Source: Ensifer adhaerens (GTDB taxonomy: Bacteria; Pseudomonadota; Alphaproteobacteria; Rhizobiales; Rhizobiaceae). Taken from it: DNA of 64,000 nucleotides. Positions 22,345 through 44,859 of the stretch are shown piece after piece (the stretch's first letter is position 1; each line of letters opens with the position of its first letter). The position numbers and the translations under genes are program-made. The notes below the pieces were generated by a model. That model was not told where the DNA came from, made no database searches, and worked only from the letters and a program-made list of their open reading frames with translations. The stretch spans positions 637,323 through 701,322 of the forward strand of contig NZ_JABEKT010000003.1 of the NCBI RefSeq assembly GCF_013283195.1, given 5' to 3'.

Positions 22345-22374
22345 CCCGATTACGTGCCCGGGCACGTAATCGGG
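22345..22374. repeat. 30-bp perfect palindrome at the RIT left junction
   Basis: CCCGATTACGTGCCC followed by its exact reverse complement. One base (C) separates it from the RIT left repeat. The identical palindrome is at 44830-44859, at the right end of the second RIT copy. It is not part of istA: the rejoined istA frame needs only its first five bases, CCCGA. It appears to travel with the RIT. Confidence 0.92.
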
Positions 22375-22450
22375 CTTTTGTGTCCCGAACGGTTATGTGG
22401 CCCGCAGCCTGTTGATCCAACCGTTGTCGTTGACGGCGGGCACATAACAA

Positions 22451-23455
22451 TCAGAGGCCAGCGAGCCATTCGAGAAGTTTTGGTTCGCTCTGCCAGACTG
22501 GTCTTCGGGGCGGTCCCACCGAAGAAGTCGAAGGCACCTGGCAGGCCTCAAGCGCCTCCTGCTTCATCCTGATGTTGATCTCGGCATATCGGTTGGTTGT
22601 ATCCAAGCTGACGTGGCCAAGCCAACCTCTTATGACGTTCACGTCGACGCCGGATTCGAGTAGATGCACGGCCGTCGTGTGTCTCCAAACATGCGGAGAA
22701 ATGGGCCTGTGTCCGTTGCCGATGCGAAGGTCCAAACCATGACGCCGGACGAGCTTGTACAGGCCGAATCGCGTCAGCGGCTTGCCGACGTTGCTGAGGA
22801 ATACCGGAGTTGCTGGCGCGGCCGGCTGGCGTCGGTCACGCAGCATCTCGCCAAGTAGGCGGGCGGTCTCGGGCCATAGTGGGCAGGTCCGCCACTTATC
22901 GCCCTTGCCGTGCAGGTTCACCCGCGGCGAGGAGATCAAAACCAGCTGATCGATGGTCAGTCCGACGACTTCCGATGCGCGGGCCCCAGTATTGTACAGG
23001 AACATGAGCAGCGCCTTGTCGCGGGTGGCCAGCCTCCCGTCGCGCGGCAGGCCGTCGAAGAGCCGTTCGACCTCGTCGCGTTCGAGATAATAGGTGGCCG
23101 CCGGCTGCGTACGCTTCCTCGGGATGGCGGCGACGCGCTCGGCCTCCGGCAGTACCATCGGCTCCTGGCCACCGGCATAGGCGAAGAAACCGTGCAACAT
23201 TGCGAGCCGGTGGTTCCGTGATCGGATGCTGTTGCCGCGCTCGGCTTCAAGATGGGCGAGAAAGGCCCGCACATTGTCGGCGCTGAGATCGGTCAGCCCG
23301 AGCTTGCTGACAGGGCGCCGGTTCTTCCTGGCCAGAAAGAGAAGGAACAACCGGATCCCGTCACGGTAGCTCCGGATCGAGGTCGGGGCCAGACCCTTCT
23401 CGGCTTTGAGATGGTGCTCGAAGAACTGATAGACGAGACTGCCGACGGTCGTCAT
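22451..23455 (-). CDS. RIT tyrosine recombinase C
   Basis: 334 residues from ATG 23455, which overlaps the stop of the B gene as ATGA. N-terminal SAM-like core-binding domain (VGSLVYQFFEHHLKAEKG, SIRSYRDGIRLFLLFL), catalytic domain with Arg in YNTGARASEVVGL, HxxR in SPHVWRHTTAVHLL, His in WLGHVSLDTTN and the nucleophile Tyr in TTNRYAEIN. Third gene of the trio, nearest the left repeat. In RIT elements all three proteins are thought to be needed for movement. Confidence 0.9.
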   Translation of the reverse strand: MTTVGSLVYQFFEHHLKAEKGLAPTSIRSYRDGIRLFLLFLARKNRRPVSKLGLTDLSADNVRAFLAHLEAERGNSIRSRNHRLAMLHGFFAYAGGQEPMVLPEAERVAAIPRKRTQPAATYYLERDEVERLFDGLPRDGRLATRDKALLMFLYNTGARASEVVGLTIDQLVLISSPRVNLHGKGDKWRTCPLWPETARLLGEMLRDRRQPAAPATPVFLSNVGKPLTRFGLYKLVRRHGLDLRIGNGHRPISPHVWRHTTAVHLLESGVDVNVIRGWLGHVSLDTTNRYAEINIRMKQEALEACQVPSTSSVGPPRRPVWQSEPKLLEWLAGL

Positions 23456-24441
23456 GGCCGGCCTCCACTTGATATTGGCAAGGCGAAGCGTTCGAAGCGC
23501 TGACCGGCGGCCTCCATCAGATCGGTGGTGATCGTCAGATAAACGGCTGTGGAAGCGGGATCCACGTGCCCCATGAAGGTCGACAGCTTGACCAGCTTGT
23601 CGGTGGGATTGCTTCCGTCGCGATACCATCGCAGAAGTCGCCCGACCGCAAAGCTGTGCCGTAGATCATGCACGTGAGCCGGCGTTCCTCCTGGCGGGAT
23701 CGCGATGTTCAGCTCCGCCGCGAGCGAATGAAAAATGATGCTGATTGTGCCCGGGTTCACGGGCCGGCCTTTCGTGAAAGAAAACAGCGGTGTGTCGGCC
23801 GCAACCGAAGCCAGGTGCTGCGATCGCAACGCCATGAACGCATAGAGTCGCTGTGCCAGTTGCGGCCCCATGGGAATGAGCCTCGACTTGGAAAACTTCG
23901 TCCCGCGGATGGTGAGGACATCACGATTGCGATCGACATCCCGCCAGCGCAGGCGCGCAACCTCGCCGACGCGCAGACCAAGCCCGAACAGCAGGCTGAA
24001 TATGGTGGCATAGGCGGGACCGCGAAGCAGAGCGTTGTTCCGATCCGCGAGTTCGGCGGCGCGATCGATGAGTTGTTGGGCAGTCCGCAGATCCAGGATG
24101 CAGGGCGGTCTTGGATTACCTCGGCGGCGCGGCTTCATCGTGACGGGAGAGCGATCGATAACGTCGTGTTCGACCATCCACTCGAACAGCCGGCCGACGA
24201 CACCGATAAGATGGTTGAAGCTTCGCGGCCGAGAGCGCGGACGGCTCAGGAAGAAAGCATCGAGGAGCGCCGGGGTGATCTCCGCGAGGGTCTTGATCTC
24301 CTGCGCGCTCAGATAGCCGTCGAGCATCCGCAGCACCTTGTCTTCGACGTCGTAGCGCCGGTTGAGCGCGCGCTTGTGACGAACGAAAGCGACGATGTGG
24401 GGCGCGATCGGGCTCGAAGGCTCGGGAAGACGGGGGCTCAT
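23452..24441 (-). CDS. RIT tyrosine recombinase B
   Basis: 329 residues from ATG 24441, overlapping the stop of the A gene by four bases. Core-binding domain around VAFVRHKRALNRRYDVEDKV; catalytic Arg in FGLGLRVGEVARL, HxxR in HVHDLRHSFAVGRLL, His in FMGHVDPASTA, Tyr in STAVYLTIT. All active-site residues are present, so it should be catalytic. Translation coupled to its neighbours. Confidence 0.9.
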   Translation of the reverse strand: MSPRLPEPSSPIAPHIVAFVRHKRALNRRYDVEDKVLRMLDGYLSAQEIKTLAEITPALLDAFFLSRPRSRPRSFNHLIGVVGRLFEWMVEHDVIDRSPVTMKPRRRGNPRPPCILDLRTAQQLIDRAAELADRNNALLRGPAYATIFSLLFGLGLRVGEVARLRWRDVDRNRDVLTIRGTKFSKSRLIPMGPQLAQRLYAFMALRSQHLASVAADTPLFSFTKGRPVNPGTISIIFHSLAAELNIAIPPGGTPAHVHDLRHSFAVGRLLRWYRDGSNPTDKLVKLSTFMGHVDPASTAVYLTITTDLMEAAGQRFERFALPISSGGRP

Positions 24442-25700
24442 TGCAGATCCTCCCCATCACCCAGAGCCACTTCACGCAAGCCATCGACCTGGACCTTGGC
24501 GTAGATCATCGTGGAAGAGGCCGAGCGATGCCCGACATAATCGCCGATGGTCTTGAGCGGAAAGCCGTTGTCCACCAGCCTCTGGACGCAAGCATGTCGC
24601 AACGTATGGGAACCGGGCCGGGCCACGGGAATGCCCGCCCTATGCAGATACTTGCTGGTCATGGCCGACACCGCGGCCTGCGTCAGTGGCGATCGCGGCG
24701 CTAGGTATCGCCAGAAGATCTGTCGGCCCTGCACATCAGGCCGCCCATTCTTCAGATAGTCGATGATCGCCTCGCCGATGACGGGGGCCAGCGGATAAGC
24801 AGTGCTATGATCGGCCTTGCGCTCCCGCACGTGTAATCGATCACGCTTCCAATCGAGGTCGTCGAGCGTCAACATCGCGACCTCGCGGGCGCGTAGGCCA
24901 TATGTGATCATCAGCAACAGCATGGCGTAATCGCGCCGGCCAACGACGGTGCGGCGATCGACCTGATCGAGCATCTTCTGGACGGAATCCCAACTGATCG
25001 ATCGGGGTATGTCGGCCAGCCGATAATGCTGGGGCACCTCGACCTGCTTGCTGATGTCGCGTTGCAGGAGGCCTTCTCTGTTCGCATATCGAAGGAAAAC
25101 GCGCAGCGTGCTCGCAATGCTCACCATCGCCCTGGGACCGAAATCCTGGGCCATCGTCGTGATGTATCCCGTGACCACGGGCAATGACAGCGCCGCGAGC
25201 TCGCATCCAACGTCCTGGAGATATCGTTCGAACCGGCGCAGATAGTGCCTATAGTGGGAAATCGAACTCGGACGCAGGCCGCGTTCTTCACGAAGATGGT
25301 CGAAGAATCCTGGCGCCTGGGTAGCGAAAGGGATCGGCCAAGCTGTTCTACGGCTGGTGGTATCCGACTTTGAGACGACCTGGCTGAAGAAATGCCGGAC
25401 AATGCCCCCGACGAAGTTGCGTTCGCGTCGACACGCATCAGCGGATCGATCGGCGCGACGAGCAGATAGCCAGTCGACAGAGAATGCTTCAACGAGTGCT
25501 TCCGCCTGGTCGGTCTGGGCGACGTTGCGTGCTGCAGTGAAATCCGCGAACGCAGTCAAGATCGGGACGCGCCGATAGATGCTGCGAACCGCGTAACCCT
25601 GCTCACAAAGCGCCGTCACATATTGGTCAATCTGCGGCCCAAGCCAGCAACCCATGATCCGGTCGACGGTCTGCGGCTTGACGAAAAAGCGGTCCAACAT
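24438..25700 (-). CDS. RIT tyrosine recombinase A
   Basis: 420 residues from ATG 25700, six bases after GGAGG; an upstream in-frame ATG at 25712 would swallow that site. The longest of the three, with about 110 extra N-terminal residues. Core-binding region around ISHYRHYLRRFERYLQ; catalytic Arg in TYGLRAREVAML, HxxR in SHTLRHACVQRL, His in YVGHRSASST, Tyr in STMIYAKV. First gene transcribed; its promoter must lie in the 115 bases up to the right repeat, where the CTTACCG-A-CGGTAAG palindrome could be an operator. Confidence 0.9.
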   Translation of the reverse strand: MLDRFFVKPQTVDRIMGCWLGPQIDQYVTALCEQGYAVRSIYRRVPILTAFADFTAARNVAQTDQAEALVEAFSVDWLSARRADRSADACRRERNFVGGIVRHFFSQVVSKSDTTSRRTAWPIPFATQAPGFFDHLREERGLRPSSISHYRHYLRRFERYLQDVGCELAALSLPVVTGYITTMAQDFGPRAMVSIASTLRVFLRYANREGLLQRDISKQVEVPQHYRLADIPRSISWDSVQKMLDQVDRRTVVGRRDYAMLLLMITYGLRAREVAMLTLDDLDWKRDRLHVRERKADHSTAYPLAPVIGEAIIDYLKNGRPDVQGRQIFWRYLAPRSPLTQAAVSAMTSKYLHRAGIPVARPGSHTLRHACVQRLVDNGFPLKTIGDYVGHRSASSTMIYAKVQVDGLREVALGDGEDLQ

Positions 25701-25815
25701 GGCAACCTCCATTCCAAAGTAGGGAACCGGAGGATGCGCTTCTGTTGCTGCCGCAAAGAGATGTGCCGTCTTTAGCCCACAGGAATCTCTAACGTCAGTA
25801 CCTTACCGACGGTAA

Positions 25816-25841
25816 GCCACATAACCGTTCGGGACACAAAA
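25816..25841. repeat. RIT copy 1 right inverted repeat
   Basis: Complement is TTTTGTGTCCCGAACGGTTA plus TGTGGC, identical to 22376-22401. Followed by TCCCGA, which repeats the first bases at the left junction. Confidence 0.92.
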
Positions 25842-25847
25842 TCCCGA

Positions 25848-26741
25848 CAATCTGAAGTCAGGCGTCAGTCGCGCCAGCTTCTACGATCCTGAGATCAACC
25901 GCAGTTACGGCATGATGGCCTCCCACTATGGCGTCGGCGTTCTTCCGGCACGGCCGAGACGCCCGAAGGACAAATCGAAGTCGAGAACGGTGTCCGTTTC
26001 GCCCAGTCCTGCGTTTTGGGACGTCTGCGCAATCACACTTTCTTCTCGCTTGCTGAAGCCAATGCCGCCATTGGCCAGGCACTTGACCGCATCAATGATC
26101 ACGTCATGCGCCGGTTGGGCGTCAGCCGCCGCCAATTGTTTGAGAGTGTCGAGCGCGCCGCGCTCGCCAGCCTTCCGGGCGAAGACTACGAATTCGCCGA
26201 ATGGCGTTTGGTCCGCGTGTCGACCGACTACCACGTCGAGTTCAAAACCTTCCTCTATTCCGTGCCGCATAATCTTATTCGCCAGCAGGTCGATCTGAGG
26301 GCGACAGCACGCACCATCGAGATCTTTCATCGCGGCAAGCGCGTCGCCGTACATCAGCGCCGCTATGGCGGTGCTCGCCATGGAACTGATCCGGATCACA
26401 TGCCCAGTTCCCATCGGCGATATGCCGAATGGACACCGGATCGCTTTCGGCGCTGGGCCGCATCCATTGGGCCGCAGACCGAAGGGTTGGTCATCGCAAT
26501 CCTTTCCAGCCGTCCGCATCCCGAACAGGGCTTTCGAACATGTCTGGGTGTCCTGCGCCTGTTTCGCGACATCGAACCCAATCGTGCCGAAGCCGTATCA
26601 GCGCGCGCCGTCGAGATCGGAGGGCTGAACTGCAAGAGCATTGCCTCGCTCCTGGCCAACCACAAAGCCGCACGCCATTCCACCGAACCGACCGCCATTG
26701 TCGATCACGCCAATCTGCGTGGCCCTGACTACTTTCATTGA
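25848..26741 (+). pseudogene. istA: istA, 3' part (IS21 transposase)
   Basis: Directly after the RIT the sequence reads (D)NLKSGVSRASFYDPEINRSY, GMMASHYGVGVLPARPRRPK, so the insertion lies at the second catalytic Asp. Then a one-base deletion near 25981 (KDKSK then VENGVRFAQS in the next frame) shifts the frame just before the catalytic Glu. The rest, from about 25984 to the stop at 26741, is the C-terminal IstA domain (LAEANAAIGQALDRINDHVM and on, to HIRPDYFH-like end DHANLRGPDYFH). istA is therefore doubly inactive. Confidence 0.85.
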
Positions 26742-26753
26742 GGAGACAAACCT

Positions 26754-27509
26754 ATGCTGATCAATCCCACCATCGACAGGCTGCGCGAACTCGGCCTTCA
26801 CGGCATGGCCACGGCCTTCCAGGAGCTCGACGCACAATCCGAGGCGCGCGGCCTCGAGCATGGAGAATGGCTTGCCATACTGCTCGAACAAGAGACTACC
26901 ATGCGCCGACAGAAGCGCTTCGAAGCCCGCGCCAGAGCTGCCAAGCTGCGTCATGATGCGCAGATCGAGAATGCCGACTTTCGTGCCGCACGTGGGCTCG
27001 ACCGCAACCTGTTCATGACGCTTGCCGGCTGCGACTGGACCCGCAAGCATCACAGTCTCCTCATCACCGGGCCGGCCGGTGTCGGCAAGAGTTGGCTTGC
27101 CTGCGCCTTGGGCCACAAGGCGTGCCGCGAGGATTTCTCCGTCGCCTATCATCGCGTTCCCAGGCTGTTTGCCACGCTCGCCCTCGCAAGGGGCGACGGC
27201 AGATATGGCCGTATCCTCAAATCGCTAGCCAAGACCGACCTGCTTATCCTTGATGACTGGGGACCGGAAAAGCTCAACGACGATCAGCGGCGCGATCTCC
27301 TCGAGATCATCGAAGACCGTTATGAGCGTCGCTCGACGATCGTCACCAGTCAGGTGCCGCTGGATCGCTGGTGGGAGATCATCGCAAACCCCACGCTCGC
27401 CGACGCCATACTGGATCGCCTCGTTCACAGCGCCTATCGCATCGATCTCACAGGCGAAAGCATGAGAAAACAGCGCGCCCCGGCGCTGCCTGAAACACCG
27501 CAAGCTTGA
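26754..27509 (+). CDS. istB: IstB, IS21 helper ATPase
   Basis: 251 residues from ATG 26754 with GAGGAGA upstream, 12 bases after istA. AAA+ ATPase: Walker A GPAGVGKSWLACALG, Walker B LLILDDWGPE, sensor segment IVTSQVPLDRWW and the ending NPTLADAILDRLVHSAYRI typical of IstB. It helps IstA choose targets. It is intact although its transposase is broken, so it could only act in trans. Confidence 0.92.
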   Translation: MLINPTIDRLRELGLHGMATAFQELDAQSEARGLEHGEWLAILLEQETTMRRQKRFEARARAAKLRHDAQIENADFRAARGLDRNLFMTLAGCDWTRKHHSLLITGPAGVGKSWLACALGHKACREDFSVAYHRVPRLFATLALARGDGRYGRILKSLAKTDLLILDDWGPEKLNDDQRRDLLEIIEDRYERRSTIVTSQVPLDRWWEIIANPTLADAILDRLVHSAYRIDLTGESMRKQRAPALPETPQA

Positions 27510-27658
27510 CGTCAAACAAAACCAGATCCAAACATCAAAAAGACCCAGGATCAGTCCGAGAAATGGCCGCCTTCAAATCGGAACGCCGGCCGGAATGAAA
27601 TCGGAATGACTGGCCGGCTTCAAATCGGAATCGATGGCCGGCTTCATCGGAATACGCA

Positions 27659-29820: not shown

Positions 29821-30534
29821 TACTGTTCAACAACCCATCGATCACTCTAGGCACGCGATCGCCGGTCGGGGGCTGCGCTACTGCGGAGAAGCCGCTCGCC
29901 GGCGTTCGTGGGCTACCGAAAGAAAAGATCCCAGGTCCGAAACGGCGAAGGACCAAGGGCCTTTTTCTGAGCGTTCGACTTCACAGGCAGGATTATCTAC
30001 GGCCGGGACGAGCCGGTCTCATTCCCTCGCGGGCGAGAGGTGCGTATTTTCGAGCCGCAACGTTAGTGTAGTCCAGACCCTACTCCGCCGGGACATCGAG
30101 GCGGCCGAGCTGGCTCTTTTGCAGCCTTATCCGCGCCGTTAAACCGGAAGGCTTGAAGTCAAATTCCACAGAGCCCGTTTCCCGGGACCGAGAACTCTTG
30201 AGGAGACTGCGGCTGCGGGTCGACCGGAGGTCCCCTCTCGCTCCAATCGATCACCAACTACTCTCCCCTTCCATTGCACCCACCAGCTTGACACTGCCGG
30301 CCACTGCGCCGAGCGCGCAATATTGCCACAGCATCCGCGGTGACCCCAACGGGGGGTCCAGTTATGTCATTGCGATCTCCGAACGGAAGCAGAACCGTAT
30401 GAACCATCGCCAATACGTTGGTAGCGACGCGATACTAGGCGCTCCACCGAGAATTAGCTATGATTAATATATTCGTTCCTGCGCCCGCTCTGCGCATGGA
30501 AAGCAAACACGCTACGTTGGGCCGGGAGGGACAC
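29821..30534. other. Intergenic stretch before the caspase-like gene
   Basis: About 710 bases, no gene I can support. A 104-residue frame at 30153 has no recognisable content. Confidence 0.4.
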
Positions 30535-32475
30535 ATGAGCGTGAACTGGATGCACCGTATTGTTTGCTTTGCACTTCTTTTGCTGCCCTTGGAAGCTTCA
30601 GCATCCGTCCGTCATGCACTCTTGATCGGCAACAGCCGCTACGAGGTAGCCACGCCGCTACGCAATCCCGAAAACGATATCGAGATCGTCGGCACAGCGC
30701 TCGAGAAAAGCGGTTTTGCCGTCACCAAGGTCGCCAACGCCAGGGCTTCCGATACGCTCTCTGCAATCGAGGCGTTCGTTAAGCGGCTTGCAGTTGCGGA
30801 GAACCCGGTAGTCATGGTCTATTTCGCCGGCCACGGTGTCCAGCTTGCCGGTGAGAACTACCTGCTTCCCGTCGACGCCAAGCTCGGATCGGAAGAGGAG
30901 TTGCGCTCCGTCGCGCTCTCGCTCGGGGAGCTCACCCGCCGTCTTGATGCGGTCAAGAGCAGCCTGCAGATCGTCGTGCTCGATTCTTGCCGCAACAACC
31001 CGTTTGAGCAGACACGAGGTCTGCGGCGCGGCCTGGCAACGGCGCCGGAACGCCTCGGTCGGATCGTTGCCTATTCGACGTCGCCGGGCAATGTCGCAAC
31101 GGACGGCGACACCGGCGCCAGCCCCTATGCGACGGCGCTCGCCGAATCGGTGAGGATCCCGGGCCTTTCGATAGAAGGGGTGTTCAAGCGTGTGCGCGCA
31201 ACGGTGCAGGAGCGCACCGGTGGCAAGCAGGAGCCTTGGGAAAACAGCGCGGTCTATGGCGACTTCCAGTTCGTCGAGGGAAAATCAGCTGAGGCCGGCG
31301 GCGACGAAGTCGCCTTCTTCGAGTTCGCAGCCCTTGCCGACAGCCAGGAGGCCTACCAGAAATATCTGTCCCGGTATCCCGACGGCATGTTCGCCAGCCT
31401 CGCGCGGCAGAAGATCACTTTCATGGACAAGGACTTCAGCTTCCGTCGCCAGAACGAGACATTTCGCCATTTCACGTTCACAACCGCAGGGGACAATCCC
31501 TGCGGCAGGGGAAGCTTCAACGCCGGGCAAAAGACAGGAGACGACATCGCAGATGGAGAGATCATCCTGCTCGACCTATTCTTTCTCTATCCCGATGCGC
31601 CGTGCAAGAACACGGTATTCTTTGATTCGTTGGTCAATGTAGACGGAGGCGGGTTTAGCAAAAACAGGATCCATTTCGACTATTTTGACAGCAAGTTCTA
31701 CCGAACCGCTGCAAACATACCTTTCGATCCTGCGCCGTACGCCCATTTCATGGAACGCTTTGACGAACTCATATTCGCTTATCGCCACATGGACAAGGAT
31801 GGCGAGATTTTACTCGAGCTTGTTGAGCCACAAAAGCCGGCGGCGGAGTACATCTCAATCGATTCCTGCGAAGGAACGTGCTTTGGCCTCCAGGCCCTCG
31901 CAAAGGCGCGCGTCACCATTGCAGAAGAGACCCGCACCTATGCATTCGAGGTGGTAAGTGCAGCGGAGCTCGGCTTGACCTGGAAGTACCAAAACACCGT
32001 TAGTAAACTTCTCGAAGCCACGGCCACCCTCCCTGATGGGGCTTCTGCGCATCCCGCGTCCCTCGCCTTTCTCGAAACAAGAACAATCGCCGGCTGGCAA
32101 GTCGTGGCAGTCGTTGGTCCCAATCGCAACCTGGAAAACTGCGAGGCGAGCCGCATCCAAGAAGGAGGGAGGCGCAGTGTGTTCCGTCTCTATCCCTACG
32201 ATCTGCTCACAATTGGCTTTACGGACCCGAAACGGAACTTCGAGGAAATAAGCGCGCGGCCATTCACATACCGCGTTGATCAAAGCGAAATGCCCTTTAT
32301 TACCCGTACCCAGTCTGGTGACGAAATTGCTTACCAGATCGAACCAACGACGAAGGTCATTGAAGCTCTGAAGGCCGGCGCCGAAATAAATCTGCACGAC
32401 GGCATGCTCAGCCTGACCGGATCAAGGGCAATGCTATCAGAGCTGCAAAGGTGCATTACGGCTTTCGGCGGTTAA
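30535..32475 (+). CDS. Exported caspase-like (peptidase C14) protein
   Basis: 646 residues from ATG 30535 with GGGAGGG upstream; an ATG at 30460 is in frame but lacks a site and would precede the signal peptide (VCFALLLLPLEASA). The caspase p20-like domain follows at once: RHALLIGNSRYEVATPLRNP, catalytic His100 in YFAGHGVQ, catalytic Cys152 in LDSCRNNPF, then GRIVAYSTSPGNVA. After about residue 250 comes a long region of about 390 residues that I do not recognise, possibly a binding domain. The signal peptide implies action in the periplasm or outside. A second such protein lies at 47700. Confidence 0.85.
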   Translation: MSVNWMHRIVCFALLLLPLEASASVRHALLIGNSRYEVATPLRNPENDIEIVGTALEKSGFAVTKVANARASDTLSAIEAFVKRLAVAENPVVMVYFAGHGVQLAGENYLLPVDAKLGSEEELRSVALSLGELTRRLDAVKSSLQIVVLDSCRNNPFEQTRGLRRGLATAPERLGRIVAYSTSPGNVATDGDTGASPYATALAESVRIPGLSIEGVFKRVRATVQERTGGKQEPWENSAVYGDFQFVEGKSAEAGGDEVAFFEFAALADSQEAYQKYLSRYPDGMFASLARQKITFMDKDFSFRRQNETFRHFTFTTAGDNPCGRGSFNAGQKTGDDIADGEIILLDLFFLYPDAPCKNTVFFDSLVNVDGGGFSKNRIHFDYFDSKFYRTAANIPFDPAPYAHFMERFDELIFAYRHMDKDGEILLELVEPQKPAAEYISIDSCEGTCFGLQALAKARVTIAEETRTYAFEVVSAAELGLTWKYQNTVSKLLEATATLPDGASAHPASLAFLETRTIAGWQVVAVVGPNRNLENCEASRIQEGGRRSVFRLYPYDLLTIGFTDPKRNFEEISARPFTYRVDQSEMPFITRTQSGDEIAYQIEPTTKVIEALKAGAEINLHDGMLSLTGSRAMLSELQRCITAFGG

Positions 32476-32896
32476 GTAGAATCGGCCGGGCTGCGACGCG
32501 TTTCGCTTTGACCAGCCTTCTCGGCGAACGACCAACTGACGACGCTCGGCGTATGGTGGGTTTCAAGCCCCACGCTATGCCGGGCGACCCTTCCTGTCGA
32601 TACATTATGCGATCTTCGTGGTCCAAAGAGTGAACATCACAGCAACACGCAGTGCAACGCTCGTGGGAGCACGAATTTGCCCGCCCCTAAGGCGACGTCC
32701 ACGCTTAGGTCTGTGGACGGCAGCACTGCGCCCCCATGTCAAACAGCTGTCGTTCGTCTGAACTGCCATTCATCCAACGGTGATTAGAACCTCGATGGTT
32801 CTGAGGCTGTGCGAAATTTATAAACACACTTGTCTTAATCGTGCCCTCAATTCAACTATAGATGGCGGCAATTGGCCGCTCGACAGTCGGGTGGAA
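32476..32896. other. Intergenic stretch before the Gabija genes
   Basis: About 420 bases, lower in GC near its end, presumably holding the gajAB promoter. The gajA frame is open back to 32780 but that part has no protein-like features. Confidence 0.4.
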
Positions 32897-34705
32897 ATGA
32901 TGCGAGTAGCTCGAATTGTGATTCAGAATTTTCGTACGTTCGCGTCACTCGACGTGAATGTCGCGGATGATCTGTGCTGCATCATCGGAGAGAACAATAC
33001 TGGCAAGACCGCGGTCCTTCGCGCAATCCAGATTTGTCTAGACAATATGCTGCCATCGAGTTTTCGGTCGCTACAGCGCGAGGACATCCACTCGGCGATC
33101 GATATCGCCGAGCCAAACCAGGTTCTGATCGGAATTGAGCTGACTGGGTTCGAGGGGCGGGTGAACGAAGAGGCGCTGGTCAGTACCTGGAAGACGGCTC
33201 CGGACCGCGCGCGTATCTTCTACCGCTTCCGCCCGCGCCCAATTGTCCGAGAGCAGCTTGCAAATGGCGGCATTGTACCCGGGGCGCTGACCCTTGAGGA
33301 CTATCAGTGGGAAATCCGCGGCGGCGGTGATCCTGCGATCGACCTCACGGACATTGCCTGGAATGACGAGGGGATCGGCGAGTCCGTGCGCTTCGCCGAT
33401 TTGCAGTCTTACCTCCTCGTTCATCTGCCCGCGCTCCGCGATGTTGAGAACGACCTGCGCAATCCCCGCCAGTCACCGCTCATCCGCCTGATCGAGGCGT
33501 TCGAGATCGATGCGGCCGAGCAGGATGCCCTGATTGCCATCCTCGACCAGGCCAATCAGGCAATCGCAAACTCGGCGACTATCGCCGAGATAGCAGGGGC
33601 AATCGACGCACGGTTCAAGGATGTCTCTGGCCCCGCGTTTGAGATGGACGCCGCGCTCGGCCTGTCCGCCGCGACCTTCCGCGCGATCATCCGCAACCTG
33701 AAAATCATTCTGTCGGACCTTTCACTTACCTCGTTCGAACCTGGCCGCAACGGTCTTGGGATGAACAACATCCTCTACATCGCGATCCTGATGGAATACC
33801 TGCAGCGGCGGATCGCGCTCAACCGCTCGGCCGGCCAATTGATACTGATCGAGGAGCCAGAAGCGCATCTTCATCCTCAATTGCAGTTCTCCTTGATCGC
33901 GGCACTGCGGGCGATCAACGTGCAGACCATCCTGACCAGTCACAGCACCCAGGTGACCTCTCAGGTTCCACTGAGCAGCATTGTATCTCTCACCAAGCGC
34001 GAGGACGCGACTATCGCTGCCGGCAATCTCGCGCTCAATGCCGCGCTGACCGCGCCAGAAATTGCCGATCTCGAACGCTACCTCGACGCAACCAAGAGCG
34101 CCTTGCTCTACGCGCGCAAGGTCATGCTGGTCGAAGGTCCAGCCGAGATGTTCCTGATCCCGGCACTGATCGAGCAAGTGTACGGCGTGAAGCTCGAGCG
34201 GCTCGGGATCTCCGTTATTGCGATTCATGGCGTCCATTTTGACGTTTATGCCAAGCTGTTCCGCGCCGGATCGCTCGAGAAAAAATGCGCCATCGTGGCC
34301 GATGCTGACATGACGCCATCCGACGCCGAGGACTTCGATCCGGAAACAGGCACCCCCGATCTGGTGGCACTGGAAAACGACTTTGTGTCCACATTTGAGG
34401 GGGCCACCACTTTCGAACGCGAGCTGGTATCGGTCGGGCGCCTGCCGATGCTGATCGAGACCGTCCGAGCCCTCGGCGCGCCGCAGATCCTTGCACAGAT
34501 GGAGGATGGGCTTGCGACGCTTGCGCTCGGGGGACTGAGCTCCGCCGACGAGACAGCACTACGCATCGAGCTTGGCCGTATCACGCTCAATACCGCCAAG
34601 CGCTTTGGCAAGGCTCGCTTCGCGCAGATAGCTGCGCGCTACGCCCACCTCGCGACCGATCTGCCGACCTATATCGAGGAGGCGTATGAGTGGCTCACCG
34701 AATGA
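32897..34705 (+). CDS. gajA: GajA-like OLD-family ATPase/TOPRIM nuclease (Gabija)
   Basis: 602 residues from ATG 32897 (or 32900); a frame open to 32780 adds 39 residues outside the family. ABC-type ATPase half: RIVIQNFRTF, Walker A GENNTGKTAV (residues 31-40), Walker B LILIEEPEAHLHPQ near 314 and the H-loop LTSHSTQV. TOPRIM half: glutamate in VMLVEGPAEM near 410 and aspartates in AIVADADM near 467. GajA proteins form a tetramer that nicks DNA when nucleotides are depleted during phage infection. Paired with gajB by a 16-base overlap, which defines the system; a bare class 2 OLD pair is the other reading. Confidence 0.88.
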   Translation: MMRVARIVIQNFRTFASLDVNVADDLCCIIGENNTGKTAVLRAIQICLDNMLPSSFRSLQREDIHSAIDIAEPNQVLIGIELTGFEGRVNEEALVSTWKTAPDRARIFYRFRPRPIVREQLANGGIVPGALTLEDYQWEIRGGGDPAIDLTDIAWNDEGIGESVRFADLQSYLLVHLPALRDVENDLRNPRQSPLIRLIEAFEIDAAEQDALIAILDQANQAIANSATIAEIAGAIDARFKDVSGPAFEMDAALGLSAATFRAIIRNLKIILSDLSLTSFEPGRNGLGMNNILYIAILMEYLQRRIALNRSAGQLILIEEPEAHLHPQLQFSLIAALRAINVQTILTSHSTQVTSQVPLSSIVSLTKREDATIAAGNLALNAALTAPEIADLERYLDATKSALLYARKVMLVEGPAEMFLIPALIEQVYGVKLERLGISVIAIHGVHFDVYAKLFRAGSLEKKCAIVADADMTPSDAEDFDPETGTPDLVALENDFVSTFEGATTFERELVSVGRLPMLIETVRALGAPQILAQMEDGLATLALGGLSSADETALRIELGRITLNTAKRFGKARFAQIAARYAHLATDLPTYIEEAYEWLTE

Positions 34706-36465
34706 TCCGGCTGACACCGGAACAGCGCGAGGCGGTTGAACATGACGGCAATCTGCTTCTGACTGCGTGCCCAGGAAGCGGCAAGACGCGGGTCATTCTC
34801 GCAAAGTTGCTGACGCTGGCCGATCAGGTTATCGGCACGCCGCAGTTCATCGGCTGCATTACCTACACCAATGCTGCGGTTGACGAGATCGAGACCAGAT
34901 TGCGCACCTACGGCAATAATGCGATCGCGGACCGCTGTGAAATCTCAACGATCCACGCTTTCTGCCTGCAATTCATTCTGCGTCCCTATAGCTGGCTGAT
35001 TCCCGAGGTGCCGGCGTCGTTTCAGGTGCTCTCCCGCGAGAACAGCCTGTTCGAGCAGATCGTGACGGCGGTCGAGGACGCCTTCTGTCGCATGCCCGCC
35101 GGGCAGGTGTTCGAGGACTATGAATCGCTTCGCATCGACGTGAACGGCGAACCCTGCGGCCAGGGTATCGAGACCGGCATCGTCACCGATGAATCCGCCG
35201 CGCTCTATTGGGAGCGGGTCCGCGCCCACGGATACCTCGATTTCGCGATGATCCTCTATTATTCATGGAAGATTGTCGAACAGCACCCGTTCGTCGGACG
35301 CGGCATCGCAAGCCGCTTTGCCTGGCTGCTGATCGACGAATTCCAGGACACCACAGACATCCAGATCGCCATCTTCGGCGCACTCCAGCATTTCCTCCAC
35401 ACCCGCTTCTTTCTCGTCGGTGACCAGAATCAGTCGATCATGCGCTTCGCCGGCGCTCGCCCCGAACTCGCCGAGCAGTTCGGCAATCAGATCGGCGCGC
35501 ACCGCGACACGGCCTTGACTGGCAACTTCCGATGCGGGCCGGCGATAGTTAGCACTGCATCAACACTGATCCCGACCGTGCCGGCGATGCAGTCGGCGGG
35601 CGATGCAGCCCAGCTCGCGGCGCAAGTGAACTACGTCCATGTCGGCCGGCCGATCGACGCCATCACCGACCATTTCCTGCCCGCCCTGCAGGATGCCGGC
35701 ATCCCGCTCGGCAAGGCCGCAATCCTTGCGCCATGGTGGACGCATCTCATCCCCGTTGCCCGCGCCCTTCGTGAATTGGACGTGCCAATCTTCGGTCCGG
35801 GTGCCCGCCCGTATAGACGTCGGCGTCTGCTTGCCGGACTTGCCGAGCAACTCGGAGCCTGCGCCGAGGCCGGCAATTACCTCGGAATCCCGGGTGTCGA
35901 ACGGGCACTGTTTCGGCTCATCGGCGATCTCACCGGGAACTCGCGCTACGACATGTTCAGCTATCAGGGGCGTCGCGTGGCGCTCGGCCTTATCTATCTC
36001 GCTCGCGAACTTGCCGACCAGCATCCCGGCGGCGTCGCTTGGCTGCGCGCCATCGCCCGCGAAGCTGGTGACTATCTCGATTGCGAGGAATGGTTGCCGG
36101 GCGGCGCCAGACAGCCGCTGATCGATTCCGCCGAGGAAATGTTGTCCGACATGCAGGCCAGCAAGGTCGATCTCGCGAATCTACTGATCTCGGATATGGG
36201 CCTGTTCGCCAATCCCGAGCAGGCGCTCAAGCTGATCACGCTACACAATTCCAAGGGCCGCGAATTCGATGGCGTCGCCCTGATCTGCATGAACAATGGC
36301 AGTATCCCGCATTTCTCGACATCGACGCAGGAGGCATATGACGAGTCTCGGCGGCTATTCTACGTCGGCCTAACCCGCGCCAGGCGCGTCCTCGTTGTGG
36401 CGTCCGATCAATCTCACTGGAAGAACACTCCGACCCCCTTCATTGCGGAGGCTGGCCTTGAATGA
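34690..36465 (+). CDS. gajB: GajB-like UvrD/Rep-type helicase (Gabija)
   Basis: 591 residues from GTG 34690, seven bases after GAGGAGG; ATG 34702 is the other candidate but is too far from it. Superfamily 1 motifs in order: Q-motif LTPEQREAV, Walker A ACPGSGKTRV, Ia ITYTNAAVDE, II LLIDEFQDTT (near 216), III VGDQNQSIMRFAGA, IV NFRCG, V LHNSKGREFDGV, VI YVGLTRARR (near 558). The gene lies inside the gajA operon and GajB is thought to sense DNA ends made by GajA. It is 100 residues longer than the Bacillus example. Confidence 0.9.
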   Translation: MAHRMIRLTPEQREAVEHDGNLLLTACPGSGKTRVILAKLLTLADQVIGTPQFIGCITYTNAAVDEIETRLRTYGNNAIADRCEISTIHAFCLQFILRPYSWLIPEVPASFQVLSRENSLFEQIVTAVEDAFCRMPAGQVFEDYESLRIDVNGEPCGQGIETGIVTDESAALYWERVRAHGYLDFAMILYYSWKIVEQHPFVGRGIASRFAWLLIDEFQDTTDIQIAIFGALQHFLHTRFFLVGDQNQSIMRFAGARPELAEQFGNQIGAHRDTALTGNFRCGPAIVSTASTLIPTVPAMQSAGDAAQLAAQVNYVHVGRPIDAITDHFLPALQDAGIPLGKAAILAPWWTHLIPVARALRELDVPIFGPGARPYRRRRLLAGLAEQLGACAEAGNYLGIPGVERALFRLIGDLTGNSRYDMFSYQGRRVALGLIYLARELADQHPGGVAWLRAIAREAGDYLDCEEWLPGGARQPLIDSAEEMLSDMQASKVDLANLLISDMGLFANPEQALKLITLHNSKGREFDGVALICMNNGSIPHFSTSTQEAYDESRRLFYVGLTRARRVLVVASDQSHWKNTPTPFIAEAGLE

Positions 36466-39361: not shown

Positions 39362-39575
39362 AACCCCTCCCACAACACACTGCGAACAATATTACAACTC
39401 TAAATAAGAGCAAGATCATAAGCTGGGCGAAGAGTTCGAATTTATGAGTGCTCAAACGAAGCGGCGAGACATCAGCGCGCGCGCAACGCGGCCGTCTTCT
39501 GTTCGGTCAAGTCCCCTATGAGCGTTGCCGAATGGACTAGAATGGGACGGGCCAGGCCGGTCGCGCCGTCGTTAC
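39362..39575. other. Spacer between the CHAP gene and IS21 element 2
   Basis: About 210 bases; low GC near the gene start, where its promoter must lie. Nothing else recognised. Confidence 0.35.
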
Positions 39576-39712
39576 TGTCAATCGGCGCGGAATGTTGACC
39601 CCTTATCGGCGTCCAATCTTCACCCCCCTGTAGACGATCAGCGCTTGGCCTGCCCGGCGCTGGCCGGGGTTGCAGAGGGTAGGCCAAGTGCGGGTGATGG
39701 GTATCTTCGGCT

Positions 39713-40447
39713 TTAGCTTTGAGAGCGGTTTTTGAAGCGCCAGGACTCGTTGCCTGTTTCCACGATCTCGCAATGGTGTGTCAGTCGGTCGAGGAGAGCC
39801 GTTGTCATCTTCGCATCGCCGAACACCGACGGCCATTCGCCGAAAGCGAGGTTCGTGGTGACGATGATCGAAGTGCGCTCGTAGAGCCTGCTGATCAGGT
39901 GGAACAGGAGCTGACCACCGGCCTGCGCGAACGGTAGGTAGCCGAGTTCATCGAGGATGATGAAGTCGAGGCGTGTAAGGTAATCCGCCGTCCGGCCCTG
40001 CTTGCCGTTGCGCGTTTCCGTTTCCAACCGATTGACCAGATCGACGACGTTAAAGAAGCGGCCGCGTGTGCTGTTGCGGATGAGAGCACGGGCAATCGCG
40101 ATGGCCAGGTGGCTCTTGCCGGTTCCCGTGCCACCGACGAGAACGACGTTGCGCTGGTCGGCGACGAAGGTGCCGGTGGCCAGTTCCCGCACCAGGGATT
40201 CATTGACGGGCGTGTCGGCGAAGTCGAAGTCGTCGATATCCTTTGCCAACGGCAGCTTGGCGATGCTGAGCTGATAGCGAATGGATCGGGCCTGCTTCTC
40301 GGCGATCTCCGACTGCAAGAGATCACCGACGATGCGCGGCGGTTCGTGCTGCCGTTTGATGCCGTTTCCCATGACCTCGTCATAAGCGCTACGCATCCCG
40401 TAGAGCTTCAGCGTGCCCATCAGTTCGAGAACCTGTGTGCGTTCCAT
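39713..40447 (-). CDS. istB: IstB, IS21 helper ATPase (element 2)
   Basis: 244 residues from ATG 40447, one base overlapping the istA stop, with AGGAGGG upstream. AAA+ motifs: Walker [16 protein letters not shown], Walker [17 protein letters not shown], sensor [13 protein letters not shown], and [14 protein letters not shown], the standard end. It differs strongly from the IstB at 26754, showing two separate IS21 groups. Confidence 0.93.
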
Positions 40448-41362
40448 CAACTTGCCCTCCTGAGCCTGTCGTAACGGGCGCAGTCGGCGACCGGCTCATG
40501 GGTAAGCCGAAGCGCATCCGGGATTTGCAGAGTTGCAGCAGGAGCCGGATCGCGGCTTCGCGCCAGAATGTTGATGATCACCGAGGCCGAGCATACGCCG
40601 TGATCGAGCGCTTCCTGGCAGGCAGCCTCAACGGCGGCGAGGCCATCGGCGGGAACGCATCCGAGTATGGTGACCATCTGTCGATCACCGTCATCGACGC
40701 TCTTCAGTCGCTTGCGAACCTTCTCCATCGCGGCTGGCAAAACCCATTCCCGGAAGGGAGCGCCGTTACGCAAGGCACCAGGTTTGCGAGCGAGAACAGG
40801 CACATAGTGCCAGGGATCGTAGACCGTGTCGCCACGGCTGAAGCTGCGCTGGTGTTCAGCGACCGTCACTCCGTCCTGCTTGATGATGATCCGGTCAGCA
40901 TAGGCATGAACCTCTACAGGGCGGCCGACGGCAGTCGACAGGACCGAGTATTTGTTGTTGTCGAAGCGGACAGTGCAGGTCTTCGACACCGAGGCCGGAA
41001 CGCTGTGGAACCCATCGAATGGGCCGACGTAACGCACAAGGCACCCACGTTCAGCCTCAAACATCTGCCAGATCGTCTGCGCCGTCTGTTCGGGATGGCT
41101 ATGGGCCTTGGCATAGGCAACGCATTTGTCGAGCAGCCAGACATTCAGTTCCTCCAGGGTTTTGACTCTGAGACGCGGCGTGAAGAACCGCTCGCGCACA
41201 AGGCCGACCTGGTTCTCGACTTGTCCCTTCTCCCAGCCGGATGCTGGTGTGCAGGCTACGGGATGAACAAGATAATGGCTGCACATCTGCAGGAAGCGGC
41301 GATTGTAGACCCGTTCCTTGCCGATGAAGACGGCCTCCACCGCCGTCTTCATGTTGTCGTAG
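40447..41362 (-). pseudogene. istA: istA 3' part (element 2)
   Basis: The sequence right after the RIT reads YDNMKTAVEAVFIGKERVYN, beginning with the second catalytic Asp codon, and continues through the catalytic Glu in GWEKGQVENQVGLVRE to the C-terminal domain. The frame is intact to its stop. An internal ATG at 41352 might be used, but the product would lack the first catalytic Asp. Confidence 0.9.
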
Positions 41363-41437
41363 TTTTGTGTCCCGAACGGTTATGTGGCCCGCAGCCTGTT
41401 GATCCAACCGTTGTCGTTGACGGCGGGCACATAACAA

Positions 41438-42442
41438 TCAGAGGCCAGCGAGCCATTCGAGAAGTTTTGGTTCGCTCTGCCAGACTGGTCTTCGGGGCGG
41501 TCCCACCGAAGAAGTCGAAGGCACCTGGCAGGCCTCAAGCGCCTCCTGCTTCATCCTGATGTTGATCTCGGCATATCGGTTGGTTGTATCCAAGCTGACG
41601 TGGCCAAGCCAACCTCTTATGACGTTCACGTCGACGCCGGATTCGAGTAGATGCACGGCCGTCGTGTGTCTCCAAACATGCGGAGAAATGGGCCTGTGTC
41701 CGTTGCCGATGCGAAGGTCCAAACCATGACGCCGGACGAGCTTGTACAGGCCGAATCGCGTCAGCGGCTTGCCGACGTTGCTGAGGAATACCGGAGTTGC
41801 TGGCGCGGCCGGCTGGCGTCGGTCACGCAGCATCTCGCCAAGTAGGCGGGCGGTCTCGGGCCATAGTGGGCAGGTCCGCCACTTATCGCCCTTGCCGTGC
41901 AGGTTCACCCGCGGCGAGGAGATCAAAACCAGCTGATCGATGGTCAGTCCGACGACTTCCGATGCGCGGGCCCCAGTATTGTACAGGAACATGAGCAGCG
42001 CCTTGTCGCGGGTGGCCAGCCTCCCGTCGCGCGGCAGGCCGTCGAAGAGCCGTTCGACCTCGTCGCGTTCGAGATAATAGGTGGCCGCCGGCTGCGTACG
42101 CTTCCTCGGGATGGCGGCGACGCGCTCGGCCTCCGGCAGTACCATCGGCTCCTGGCCACCGGCATAGGCGAAGAAACCGTGCAACATTGCGAGCCGGTGG
42201 TTCCGTGATCGGATGCTGTTGCCGCGCTCGGCTTCAAGATGGGCGAGAAAGGCCCGCACATTGTCGGCGCTGAGATCGGTCAGCCCGAGCTTGCTGACAG
42301 GGCGCCGGTTCTTCCTGGCCAGAAAGAGAAGGAACAACCGGATCCCGTCACGGTAGCTCCGGATCGAGGTCGGGGCCAGACCCTTCTCGGCTTTGAGATG
42401 GTGCTCGAAGAACTGATAGACGAGACTGCCGACGGTCGTCAT
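41438..42442 (-). CDS. RIT tyrosine recombinase C, copy 2
   Basis: 334 residues, the same protein as 22451-23455. All catalytic residues are intact (Arg in GARASEV, HxxR in WRHTT, His in LGHVS, Tyr in NRYAEI). Identity of the two copies points to recent movement or gene conversion. Confidence 0.9.
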   Translation of the reverse strand: MTTVGSLVYQFFEHHLKAEKGLAPTSIRSYRDGIRLFLLFLARKNRRPVSKLGLTDLSADNVRAFLAHLEAERGNSIRSRNHRLAMLHGFFAYAGGQEPMVLPEAERVAAIPRKRTQPAATYYLERDEVERLFDGLPRDGRLATRDKALLMFLYNTGARASEVVGLTIDQLVLISSPRVNLHGKGDKWRTCPLWPETARLLGEMLRDRRQPAAPATPVFLSNVGKPLTRFGLYKLVRRHGLDLRIGNGHRPISPHVWRHTTAVHLLESGVDVNVIRGWLGHVSLDTTNRYAEINIRMKQEALEACQVPSTSSVGPPRRPVWQSEPKLLEWLAGL

Positions 42443-43428
42443 GGCCGGCCTCCACTTGATATTGGCAAGGCGAAGCGTTCGAAGCGCTGACCGGCGGCCT
42501 CCATCAGATCGGTGGTGATCGTCAGATAAACGGCTGTGGAAGCGGGATCCACGTGCCCCATGAAGGTCGACAGCTTGACCAGCTTGTCGGTGGGATTGCT
42601 TCCGTCGCGATACCATCGCAGAAGTCGCCCGACCGCAAAGCTGTGCCGTAGATCATGCACGTGAGCCGGCGTTCCTCCTGGCGGGATCGCGATGTTCAGC
42701 TCCGCCGCGAGCGAATGAAAAATGATGCTGATTGTGCCCGGGTTCACGGGCCGGCCTTTCGTGAAAGAAAACAGCGGTGTGTCGGCCGCAACCGAAGCCA
42801 GGTGCTGCGATCGCAACGCCATGAACGCATAGAGTCGCTGTGCCAGTTGCGGCCCCATGGGAATGAGCCTCGACTTGGAAAACTTCGTCCCGCGGATGGT
42901 GAGGACATCACGATTGCGATCGACATCCCGCCAGCGCAGGCGCGCAACCTCGCCGACGCGCAGACCAAGCCCGAACAGCAGGCTGAATATGGTGGCATAG
43001 GCGGGACCGCGAAGCAGAGCGTTGTTCCGATCCGCGAGTTCGGCGGCGCGATCGATGAGTTGTTGGGCAGTCCGCAGATCCAGGATGCAGGGCGGTCTTG
43101 GATTACCTCGGCGGCGCGGCTTCATCGTGACGGGAGAGCGATCGATAACGTCGTGTTCGACCATCCACTCGAACAGCCGGCCGACGACACCGATAAGATG
43201 GTTGAAGCTTCGCGGCCGAGAGCGCGGACGGCTCAGGAAGAAAGCATCGAGGAGCGCCGGGGTGATCTCCGCGAGGGTCTTGATCTCCTGCGCGCTCAGA
43301 TAGCCGTCGAGCATCCGCAGCACCTTGTCTTCGACGTCGTAGCGCCGGTTGAGCGCGCGCTTGTGACGAACGAAAGCGACGATGTGGGGCGCGATCGGGC
43401 TCGAAGGCTCGGGAAGACGGGGGCTCAT
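42439..43428 (-). CDS. RIT tyrosine recombinase B, copy 2
   Basis: 329 residues, the same protein as 23452-24441, overlapping its neighbours by four bases on each side. Active-site residues Arg (GLRVGEV), HxxR (DLRHSF), His (MGHVD) and Tyr (AVYLT) are present. Confidence 0.9.
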   Translation of the reverse strand: MSPRLPEPSSPIAPHIVAFVRHKRALNRRYDVEDKVLRMLDGYLSAQEIKTLAEITPALLDAFFLSRPRSRPRSFNHLIGVVGRLFEWMVEHDVIDRSPVTMKPRRRGNPRPPCILDLRTAQQLIDRAAELADRNNALLRGPAYATIFSLLFGLGLRVGEVARLRWRDVDRNRDVLTIRGTKFSKSRLIPMGPQLAQRLYAFMALRSQHLASVAADTPLFSFTKGRPVNPGTISIIFHSLAAELNIAIPPGGTPAHVHDLRHSFAVGRLLRWYRDGSNPTDKLVKLSTFMGHVDPASTAVYLTITTDLMEAAGQRFERFALPISSGGRP

Positions 43429-44687
43429 TGCAGATCCTCCCCATCACCCAGAGCCACTTCACGCAAGCCATCGACCTGGACCTTGGCGTAGATCATCGTG
43501 GAAGAGGCCGAGCGATGCCCGACATAATCGCCGATGGTCTTGAGCGGAAAGCCGTTGTCCACCAGCCTCTGGACGCAAGCATGTCGCAACGTATGGGAAC
43601 CGGGCCGGGCCACGGGAATGCCCGCCCTATGCAGATACTTGCTGGTCATGGCCGACACCGCGGCCTGCGTCAGTGGCGATCGCGGCGCTAGGTATCGCCA
43701 GAAGATCTGTCGGCCCTGCACATCAGGCCGCCCATTCTTCAGATAGTCGATGATCGCCTCGCCGATGACGGGGGCCAGCGGATAAGCAGTGCTATGATCG
43801 GCCTTGCGCTCCCGCACGTGTAATCGATCACGCTTCCAATCGAGGTCGTCGAGCGTCAACATCGCGACCTCGCGGGCGCGTAGGCCATATGTGATCATCA
43901 GCAACAGCATGGCGTAATCGCGCCGGCCAACGACGGTGCGGCGATCGACCTGATCGAGCATCTTCTGGACGGAATCCCAACTGATCGATCGGGGTATGTC
44001 GGCCAGCCGATAATGCTGGGGCACCTCGACCTGCTTGCTGATGTCGCGTTGCAGGAGGCCTTCTCTGTTCGCATATCGAAGGAAAACGCGCAGCGTGCTC
44101 GCAATGCTCACCATCGCCCTGGGACCGAAATCCTGGGCCATCGTCGTGATGTATCCCGTGACCACGGGCAATGACAGCGCCGCGAGCTCGCATCCAACGT
44201 CCTGGAGATATCGTTCGAACCGGCGCAGATAGTGCCTATAGTGGGAAATCGAACTCGGACGCAGGCCGCGTTCTTCACGAAGATGGTCGAAGAATCCTGG
44301 CGCCTGGGTAGCGAAAGGGATCGGCCAAGCTGTTCTACGGCTGGTGGTATCCGACTTTGAGACGACCTGGCTGAAGAAATGCCGGACAATGCCCCCGACG
44401 AAGTTGCGTTCGCGTCGACACGCATCAGCGGATCGATCGGCGCGACGAGCAGATAGCCAGTCGACAGAGAATGCTTCAACGAGTGCTTCCGCCTGGTCGG
44501 TCTGGGCGACGTTGCGTGCTGCAGTGAAATCCGCGAACGCAGTCAAGATCGGGACGCGCCGATAGATGCTGCGAACCGCGTAACCCTGCTCACAAAGCGC
44601 CGTCACATATTGGTCAATCTGCGGCCCAAGCCAGCAACCCATGATCCGGTCGACGGTCTGCGGCTTGACGAAAAAGCGGTCCAACAT
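43425..44687 (-). CDS. RIT tyrosine recombinase A, copy 2
   Basis: 420 residues, the same protein as 24438-25700, start ATG 44687 behind GGAGG. Active-site residues Arg (GLRAREV), HxxR (TLRHAC), His (VGHRS) and Tyr (MIYAK) are present. Upstream lies the same CTTACCG-A-CGGTAAG palindrome. Confidence 0.9.
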   Translation of the reverse strand: MLDRFFVKPQTVDRIMGCWLGPQIDQYVTALCEQGYAVRSIYRRVPILTAFADFTAARNVAQTDQAEALVEAFSVDWLSARRADRSADACRRERNFVGGIVRHFFSQVVSKSDTTSRRTAWPIPFATQAPGFFDHLREERGLRPSSISHYRHYLRRFERYLQDVGCELAALSLPVVTGYITTMAQDFGPRAMVSIASTLRVFLRYANREGLLQRDISKQVEVPQHYRLADIPRSISWDSVQKMLDQVDRRTVVGRRDYAMLLLMITYGLRAREVAMLTLDDLDWKRDRLHVRERKADHSTAYPLAPVIGEAIIDYLKNGRPDVQGRQIFWRYLAPRSPLTQAAVSAMTSKYLHRAGIPVARPGSHTLRHACVQRLVDNGFPLKTIGDYVGHRSASSTMIYAKVQVDGLREVALGDGEDLQ

Positions 44688-44802
44688 GGCAACCTCCATT
44701 CCAAAGTAGGGAACCGGAGGATGCGCTTCTGTTGCTGCCGCAAAGAGATGTGCCGTCTTTAGCCCACAGGAATCTCTAACGTCAGTACCTTACCGACGGT
44801 AA

Positions 44803-44828
44803 GCCACATAACCGTTCGGGACACAAAA
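44803..44828. repeat. RIT copy 2 right inverted repeat
   Basis: Identical to 25816-25841 and the complement of 41363-41388. One base (T) separates it from the palindrome. Confidence 0.92.
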
Positions 44829-44829
44829 T

Positions 44830-44859
44830 CCCGATTACGTGCCCGGGCACGTAATCGGG
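44830..44859. repeat. 30-bp perfect palindrome at the RIT right junction
   Basis: Same 30 bases as at 22345-22374, here attached to the right end of RIT copy 2. Seen from istA, it is again on the 5' side of the split and adds the residues DYVPGHVIG to the truncated transposase. Confidence 0.92.

Follow-up and report, generated by a model that had tools for sequence, protein, structure and literature searches.

RIT elements at the codon of a catalytic aspartate of IS21 transposases, with a candidate palindromic double crossover site

A 64,000-nucleotide stretch of an Ensifer adhaerens contig (NZ_JABEKT010000003.1, positions 637,323 to 701,322; hereafter the window) carries two RIT elements, which encode the tyrosine recombinases RitA, RitB and RitC. 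Each interrupts the transposase gene istA of an IS21 element at the codon for the second catalytic Asp of IstA. The copies measure 3466 bp between their outer repeat ends (copy 1, 22376-25841; copy 2, 41363-44828) and are 100% identical (rounded) across 3472 bp; a search of the same genome gave no third copy. RITs have been described as three overlapping tyrosine-recombinase genes in the order A-B-C, about 3.5 kb in all, with a 28-29-bp inverted repeat and a palindrome at the ends (PMC3414803, PMC2864759; here and below, statements on cited papers refer to the passages covered). The window copies share the overlapping ritA-ritB-ritC trio, the length of about 3.5 kb and the terminal inverted repeats with an adjacent palindrome; their repeats are 26 bp long. 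The genes of copy 1 lie on the minus strand and all match Phage_integrase: ritC (22451-23455; 1.4e-30), ritB (23452-24441; 2e-18) and ritA (24438-25712; 3.2e-27). The 4-bp overlap of ritA and ritB falls at 24438-24441; the listed open reading frame of ritC starts at 23629, and the ATG at 23455 would give a 4-bp overlap with ritB. The genes of copy 2 (41438-44699, minus strand) are identical. The three adjacent genes occupy the whole element, with no room for an accessory gene of the Srap/GinD/TnpC kind. The HxxR and Tyr motifs are catalytic in these recombinases, and the H, R and Tyr residues are invariant in alignments A1-A4 (A1 and A2 comprise four close sequences each). RitA has one SAM-like domain at residues 136-214 according to Pfam and an N-terminus with no Pfam assignment; it has been described with two core-binding domains (PMC8138268).

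The two interrupted transposase genes, istA-1 and istA-2, are different genes, as the original prediction had stated, and both match the NCBIfam IS21 profile NF033546. The 5' part of istA-1 (21697-22343, plus strand; profile positions 4-184, and sequence) runs up to the catalytic Asp region, and its 3' part (25848-26741, plus strand) resumes with the last base of the Asp codon, followed by NLKSGV. The corresponding parts of istA-2 lie on the minus strand at 44861-45456 (positions 2-184) and 40447-41356 (NMKTAV; positions 183-289). Both 5' parts therefore stop at profile position 184, and the 3' parts begin at 183. In intact relatives, which have 503 and 543 codons, the Asp of the motifs PDNLK and YDNMK aligns with D187 of IS5376 IstA (phmmer), one of the catalytic residues D124, D187 and E233 named for that enzyme (PMC10122671). 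The IS5376 IstA/IstB pair is in this respect the counterpart of the victim, not of the RIT. The istB genes of the first and second IS21 lie at 26754-27509 (plus strand; IstB_IS21, 1.6e-71) and 39713-40450 (minus strand; 9.8e-76), and the two RIT-carrying IS21 elements are about 19 kb apart. Since istA is split, IS21 loses its transposase in cis, in agreement with the silencing that had been predicted. Copy 1 interrupts a plus-strand istA and copy 2 a minus-strand istA, with the recombinase genes of both copies on the minus strand; the RITs are therefore oppositely oriented relative to istA. Because the istA genes also differ, the two insertions are independent. Four places in this genome match IS21 istA: two are split by the RITs, one is broken otherwise and one is a weak fragment.

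In both copies, 32 bases separate istA from one of the repeats: six variable bases (O1), a perfect 20-bp palindrome, TTACGTGCCCGGGCACGTAA, and six further variable bases (O3). At the opposite element end, the stretch from the repeat to istA is six bases long (O2). In copy 1, O1 (TCCCGA; 22344-22349, plus strand), the palindrome (22350-22369, no strand) and O3 (TCGGGC; 22370-22375, plus strand) precede the repeat of the RitC end (22376-22401, plus strand), while the repeat of the RitA end (25816-25841, minus strand) is followed by O2 (TCCCGA; 25842-25847, plus strand). In copy 2, O2 (CTACGA, native istA bases; 41357-41362, minus strand) adjoins the repeat of the RitC end (41363-41388, plus strand), and the repeat of the RitA end (44803-44828, minus strand) is followed by O3 (TCGGGA; 44829-44834, minus strand), the palindrome (44835-44854, no strand) and O1 (GCCCGA, foreign to istA-2; 44855-44860, minus strand). 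The palindrome lies at the ritC end in copy 1 and at the ritA end in copy 2, on the istA 5' side in both, and its pattern occurs twice in the window versus a mean of 0.00 over 100 shuffles. From 25842 on, the copy 1 junction reads ACACAAAA-TCCCGA|CAATCTGAAG, and on the minus strand the copy 2 junction reads ACACAAAA-CTACGA|CAACATGAAG, with the six bases at 41357-41362; both were quoted correctly in the original prediction. That prediction placed the break after GA of the GAC codon. Both breaks are indeed at the Asp codon, but GA|C does not simply describe both flanks: a six-base stretch of the form NNNNGA is exchanged, and the palindrome side supplies a GAT of its own. The palindrome with its flanking six bases, the opposite orientation and the istA-1 frameshift described below had no place in the original prediction.

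The fate of the six bases was followed by comparison with empty sites in 11 uninterrupted istA-2 relatives (L107-L117). The uninterrupted motif was found in nine of them, all of which read AT, then CTACGA or CTATGA, then the remainder of the Asp codon and Asn-Met-Lys; the Asp codon is GAC or GAT, once each way. The other two, L114 and L117, gave no match to the motif, and the palindrome is absent from the istA-2 empty sites. Copy 2 has CTACGA on its plain side and GCCCGA on its palindrome side, and the target neither lost nor duplicated bases. Because the empty sites read CTACGA or CTATGA, copy 2 has kept the target's own six bases on the plain side, whereas those on the palindrome side are foreign. 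The 6-bp spacer is asymmetrically exchanged, both in this comparison and in the six-base empty sites of 28 of the 43 elements surveyed below.

Relatives of the window elements were collected by RIT sequence and not by istA. The clade loci come from plasmids (L009-L019), genome contigs (10 loci, L020-L029) and more distant matches (L034-L036, L048, L049 and L074); the plasmid survey covered regions from 17 of 33 matching records, and the further search a selection out of 646. L021 repeats L010, L024-L026 and L029 repeat L012, and L016 and L048 have no readable outside sequence. All 18 distinct palindrome-side junctions lie in istA at the catalytic-Asp codon. A script identified 16 of these istA genes (less than 95% identity over 60 amino acids; median pairwise identity 0.42), and L013 and L017, misread or missed by the script, bring the total to 18, being at most 68% and 75% identical to the other 16. 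A further five loci (L015, L018, L035, L036 and L074) are end-only cases in istA, and both ends of L074 lie in istA 3' parts. No clade end outside istA was found among the readable ends. The match to NF033546 breaks at 183-185 in both window copies and in L010, L011 and L034. The check proposed with the original prediction, collection of the relatives' flanks, was therefore positive without exception among readable clade ends, and the targeting of the catalytic-Asp codon was borne out. As far as these sequences can be read, the site specificity is real and general for the clade. The same 20-bp palindrome core recurs in unrelated istA genes, always on the 5' side of istA; among the clade elements with both ends clean it lies at the ritA end in seven of nine and at the ritC end in two of nine. 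In L009 (one junction), L013, L014, L022, L027 and L028 the palindrome adjoins the ritC end, in L019 the ritA end. At L009 (3013-9109), a palindrome and an istA 5' half are present at each outer end with an annotated istA/istB pair between them, an arrangement suggestive of recombination between two RIT insertions. The terminal-repeat pattern matched one of 397 genomes of the order, the window's own, and the palindrome pattern had no matches in viral contigs.

Every one of the distinct six-base stretches of the clade (8 O1, 10 O2 and, as the reverse complement, 11 O3) has GA as its last two bases, and ahead of Asp stands a codon for Pro, Tyr, Leu, Cys or Phe. Such stretches resemble remnants of former istA target sites, so that the RIT seems to move from istA to istA. 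The original prediction that it would spread with IS21 was not supported; the variability of these stretches suggests autonomous movement instead.

A wider survey placed this clade among other RITs. With a RitC profile, matches were obtained in 12 of 398 genomes from the phylum and in 11 of 385 from the class (the window's own genome in both), and in 20 of the 22 plasmid records already collected. Screening reduced the 94 candidate element ends to 62, of which 52 were unique; the 32 dropped (repeat score below 15 or odd length) include the damaged IstA-clade members L009, L013, L022, L028 and L035, which were afterwards read individually. Palindrome scores were poor or borders doubtful for L044 (first entry), L052, L066, L074, L078, L079, L083, L084, L085, L102, L103 and L105. 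The order O1-palindrome-O3-repeat recurs across RITs, and each type has its own palindrome. Among the 43 elements with an acceptable palindrome, setting six native bases between the flanks restored a target motif in 28, a count that is not blind, the motif list having been drawn up after the flanks were viewed, and not all of whose elements are independent (L014, L063 and L064 share one plasmid). The restored targets are the IstA Asp (nine elements), the LDD of IstB Walker B (four), the Arg of HxxR in tyrosine recombinases (five, four of them in RitB genes of other RITs), the Tyr of TTERY (one), the IS66 DDF-A-G region (two), the IstA Glu region (two), the DP motif of IS66 TnpB (two), PQGG of a group II reverse transcriptase (one), a position near DAADA of IS110 (one, border doubtful) and an N-terminal IstA motif (one). 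A catalytic codon falls within the six bases or is cut by them in 19 of the 28 (IstA Asp, IstB, recombinase Arg and Tyr), where we take the IstB Walker B and recombinase Arg and Tyr codons to be catalytic from their familiar motifs and, for IstB, also from alignment. The flanks of the 15 elements with no restored motif match IS66 transposase (L050, L079, L089 and L092), IstB (L078), reverse transcriptase (L087), strawberry-notch helicase domains (L043 and L055) and DUF3489 (L053). By eye, L040 resembles a group II intron end and L074 istA, and no identity was found for the flanks of L083, L094, L096 and L103. Apart from these 15, L102 has a toprim flank with doubtful borders.

The side of the target on which the palindrome lies was constant in 24 of 24 cases across the six target classes with at least two members, and both element ends were seen at it in each class. 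A RitC tree with 38 rows groups the 12 IstA-Asp rows on a single branch (100/100) and the five IstB rows on a second (100/100); target choice is therefore inherited. RITs are themselves among the victims: one RIT type (L063, L064, L014 and L097) has inserted into the RitB genes of other RITs, where it occupies the Arg codon of HDLRH. Two RIT types lie in group II intron DNA (L086, L087 and L040), one at the PQGG of the reverse transcriptase and one near the apparent 3' part of the intron.

The palindrome halves were compared with the repeat end of their own element in a permutation test, in which 38 rows were reduced to 16 RIT types and elements with a palindrome score below 7 and loci L074, L078, L079, L083, L102 and L103 were omitted. 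The halves agree at 107 of 160 positions, compared with 77 ± 5.3 after permutation, and none of 20,000 permutations scored as high. The resemblance points to a model in which RitA, RitB and RitC would form a circle consisting of the RitA-end repeat, six bases, the palindrome, six bases and the RitC-end repeat. The palindrome would represent two extra recombinase half-sites, so that a full crossover site would lie at each of its edges, with a 6-bp overlap flanked by one half-site from the terminal repeat and one from the palindrome. Recombination could take place between either edge and an istA site that offers an overlap NNNNGA, the last base of the Asp codon, an Asn codon and usually a Lys two codons on. 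The circle's six bases would end up on the palindrome side and the target's own six would stay on the other; copy 1 would have arisen by insertion at the left edge of the circle and copy 2 at the right edge, and the outcome would be an IS21 deprived of its transposase gene. A crossover site at either palindrome edge would explain both the two orientations and the constant side of the palindrome. One hypothetical circle, A-end-TCCCGA-palindrome-TCGGGC-C-end, predicts all junction bases of both copies. We consider it highly probable that the recombinases of this clade integrate at the codon of the second catalytic Asp of IS21 IstA through a circle with two equivalent crossover sites at the palindrome edges.

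Several points weigh against this model or limit it. Mobility of RITs has hitherto been deduced from copies and context; neither a circle nor excision or transposition was seen here. O1 equals O2 in copy 1 (both TCCCGA), and this copy therefore does not discriminate. Only four of the six overlap bases vary in the IstA clade, and the putative overlap length of six is drawn from anatomy and analogy. L036 has Glu (GAA) at the expected Asp position, the ends of L009 and L074 fit no simple single insertion, and no motif was restored in 15 of the 43 elements. The palindrome was also considered as a mimic of the target, an explanation rejected at 42 of 160 positions versus 39.5 after permutation (p = 0.33).

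The shared site could instead reflect shared descent, if copy 1 gave rise to copy 2, either through homologous recombination or because an IS21::RIT composite transposed. The identical RIT bodies and their location in two IS21 elements about 19 kb apart fit such an origin, which nevertheless appears extremely improbable: the istA genes differ and each has its own uninterrupted relatives, the six-base stretches and the orientation to istA are not the same, and many other istA genes are hit at the same site. Copying of copy 2 together with the istA flanks of copy 1, which the original prediction had named as a refuting outcome, is excluded by the differences in flanks, orientation and overlap bases. 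Loose recombinase specificity, with RITs seen in istA merely through the abundance of IS21 and its tolerance of insertions, would accord with the presence of some other RIT clades in other plasmid genes. We give it next to no credence, since one codon is used in every readable clade case although the intact genes offer 503 and 543 codons, the profile match breaks within the same three positions in copies 1 and 2, L010, L011 and L034, and the relatives were retrieved through the RIT and not through istA.

Two further alternatives accept the site specificity and concern the palindrome and the orientation. The palindrome could be target DNA or a by-product of insertion, such as an inverted duplication, and not part of a circle; it does lie outside the terminal repeats, and the adjacent outer GA fits the Asp codon. 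Its 20-bp core is nevertheless the same across unrelated istA genes, each RIT type's palindrome resembles its own repeat end, and empty sites lack it, so that this origin is quite unlikely. The two orientations could also result from inversion in place between the terminal repeats after insertion. These repeats are inverted and near identical, and the same recombinases could invert the segment while the palindrome stayed put. Nothing decisive speaks against such an inversion, which we regard as unlikely, somewhat less so than a by-product palindrome; the swapped O1 and O3 of copies 1 and 2 fit use of the other edge with no extra step.

Beyond the IstA clade, the proposition that a RIT is always on a catalytic codon was rejected as too strong: one L070 element, L080/L081, L086 and L066 are at conserved non-catalytic positions, and L043, L055, L053 and perhaps L102 sit in helicase, DUF3489 and toprim genes. 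With somewhat better than even confidence, we propose that the RIT class as a whole is hyperparasitic on mobile DNA. In most clades the target would be a motif that is conserved, and often catalytic, in the enzyme of some other mobile element and that this rival cannot lose; a palindromic double crossover site would allow insertion in both orientations. The targets would comprise the Asp and Glu regions of IstA, IstB Walker B, the Asp and Glu regions of IS66, the Arg and Tyr of recombinases, including those of other RITs, and PQGG. Taken together, the sequence comparisons give good support, as anatomy, to RITs aimed at active-site codons via a palindromic double site, with the mechanism as a proposal.

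Other features of the two IS21 elements and their surroundings were also recorded. A frameshift in istA-1, 3' of the RIT insertion and within 25848-26016, may reflect decay after silencing. A motif like GGCCGGCTTCAAATCGGAAT recurs in inverted orientation around the first IS21, at 21565-21609 and 27564-27636, and probably represents its terminal repeats. The region between the two RIT-split IS21 elements includes a defence pair of the Gabija type (32780-36465, plus strand), in which GajA (1133 bits) and GajB (1082 bits) are each close to full length. The protein encoded directly upstream (30460-32475, plus strand) has a weak PADLOC caspase match (35 bits).

RITs in transposase genes are already known: earlier elements interrupt IS66 tnpA and radC (PMC2864759) and, in one case, a Tn6049-like transposase gene (PMC3414803, PMC2864759). 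Their target-site specificity is listed as not formally tested (Table 1 of PMC10214605), and the need for three recombinases has been called hard to understand (PMC3414803). The literature surveyed, with Van Houdt 2009 and Ricker 2013 outside it, holds in the passages covered no statement of a codon-level or IS21 target for RITs and no description of a palindromic double crossover site; within it, specificity for the IstA-Asp codon is new. With a defined attachment site, a defined 6-bp exchange and a clear orientation rule, the RIT reaction becomes accessible to testing. The choice of target illustrates that site specificity need not keep a mobile element from becoming widespread when what it reads is the most conserved codon in the enzyme of another element. 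This choice also predicts silencing of IS21.

Among known systems, the strand-biased circularizing integrative elements (SEs) leave the 6-bp spacer of the circle on one side and the native 6 bp on the other (PMC10214605). SEs and GInts resemble RITs in having several tyrosine recombinases, and the asymmetric 6-bp fate in SEs is that seen in copy 2; they differ in having four core genes, and the passages of PMC10214605 covered include no palindrome or two-edge site. Tn554 is likewise a target-specific tyrosine-recombinase transposon that leaves a 6-bp copy of the donor flank as its footprint (PMC10214605), but it has TnpA, TnpB and TnpC in place of three Rit-type recombinases. By analogy, the window RIT may work like an SE, but it is not one.

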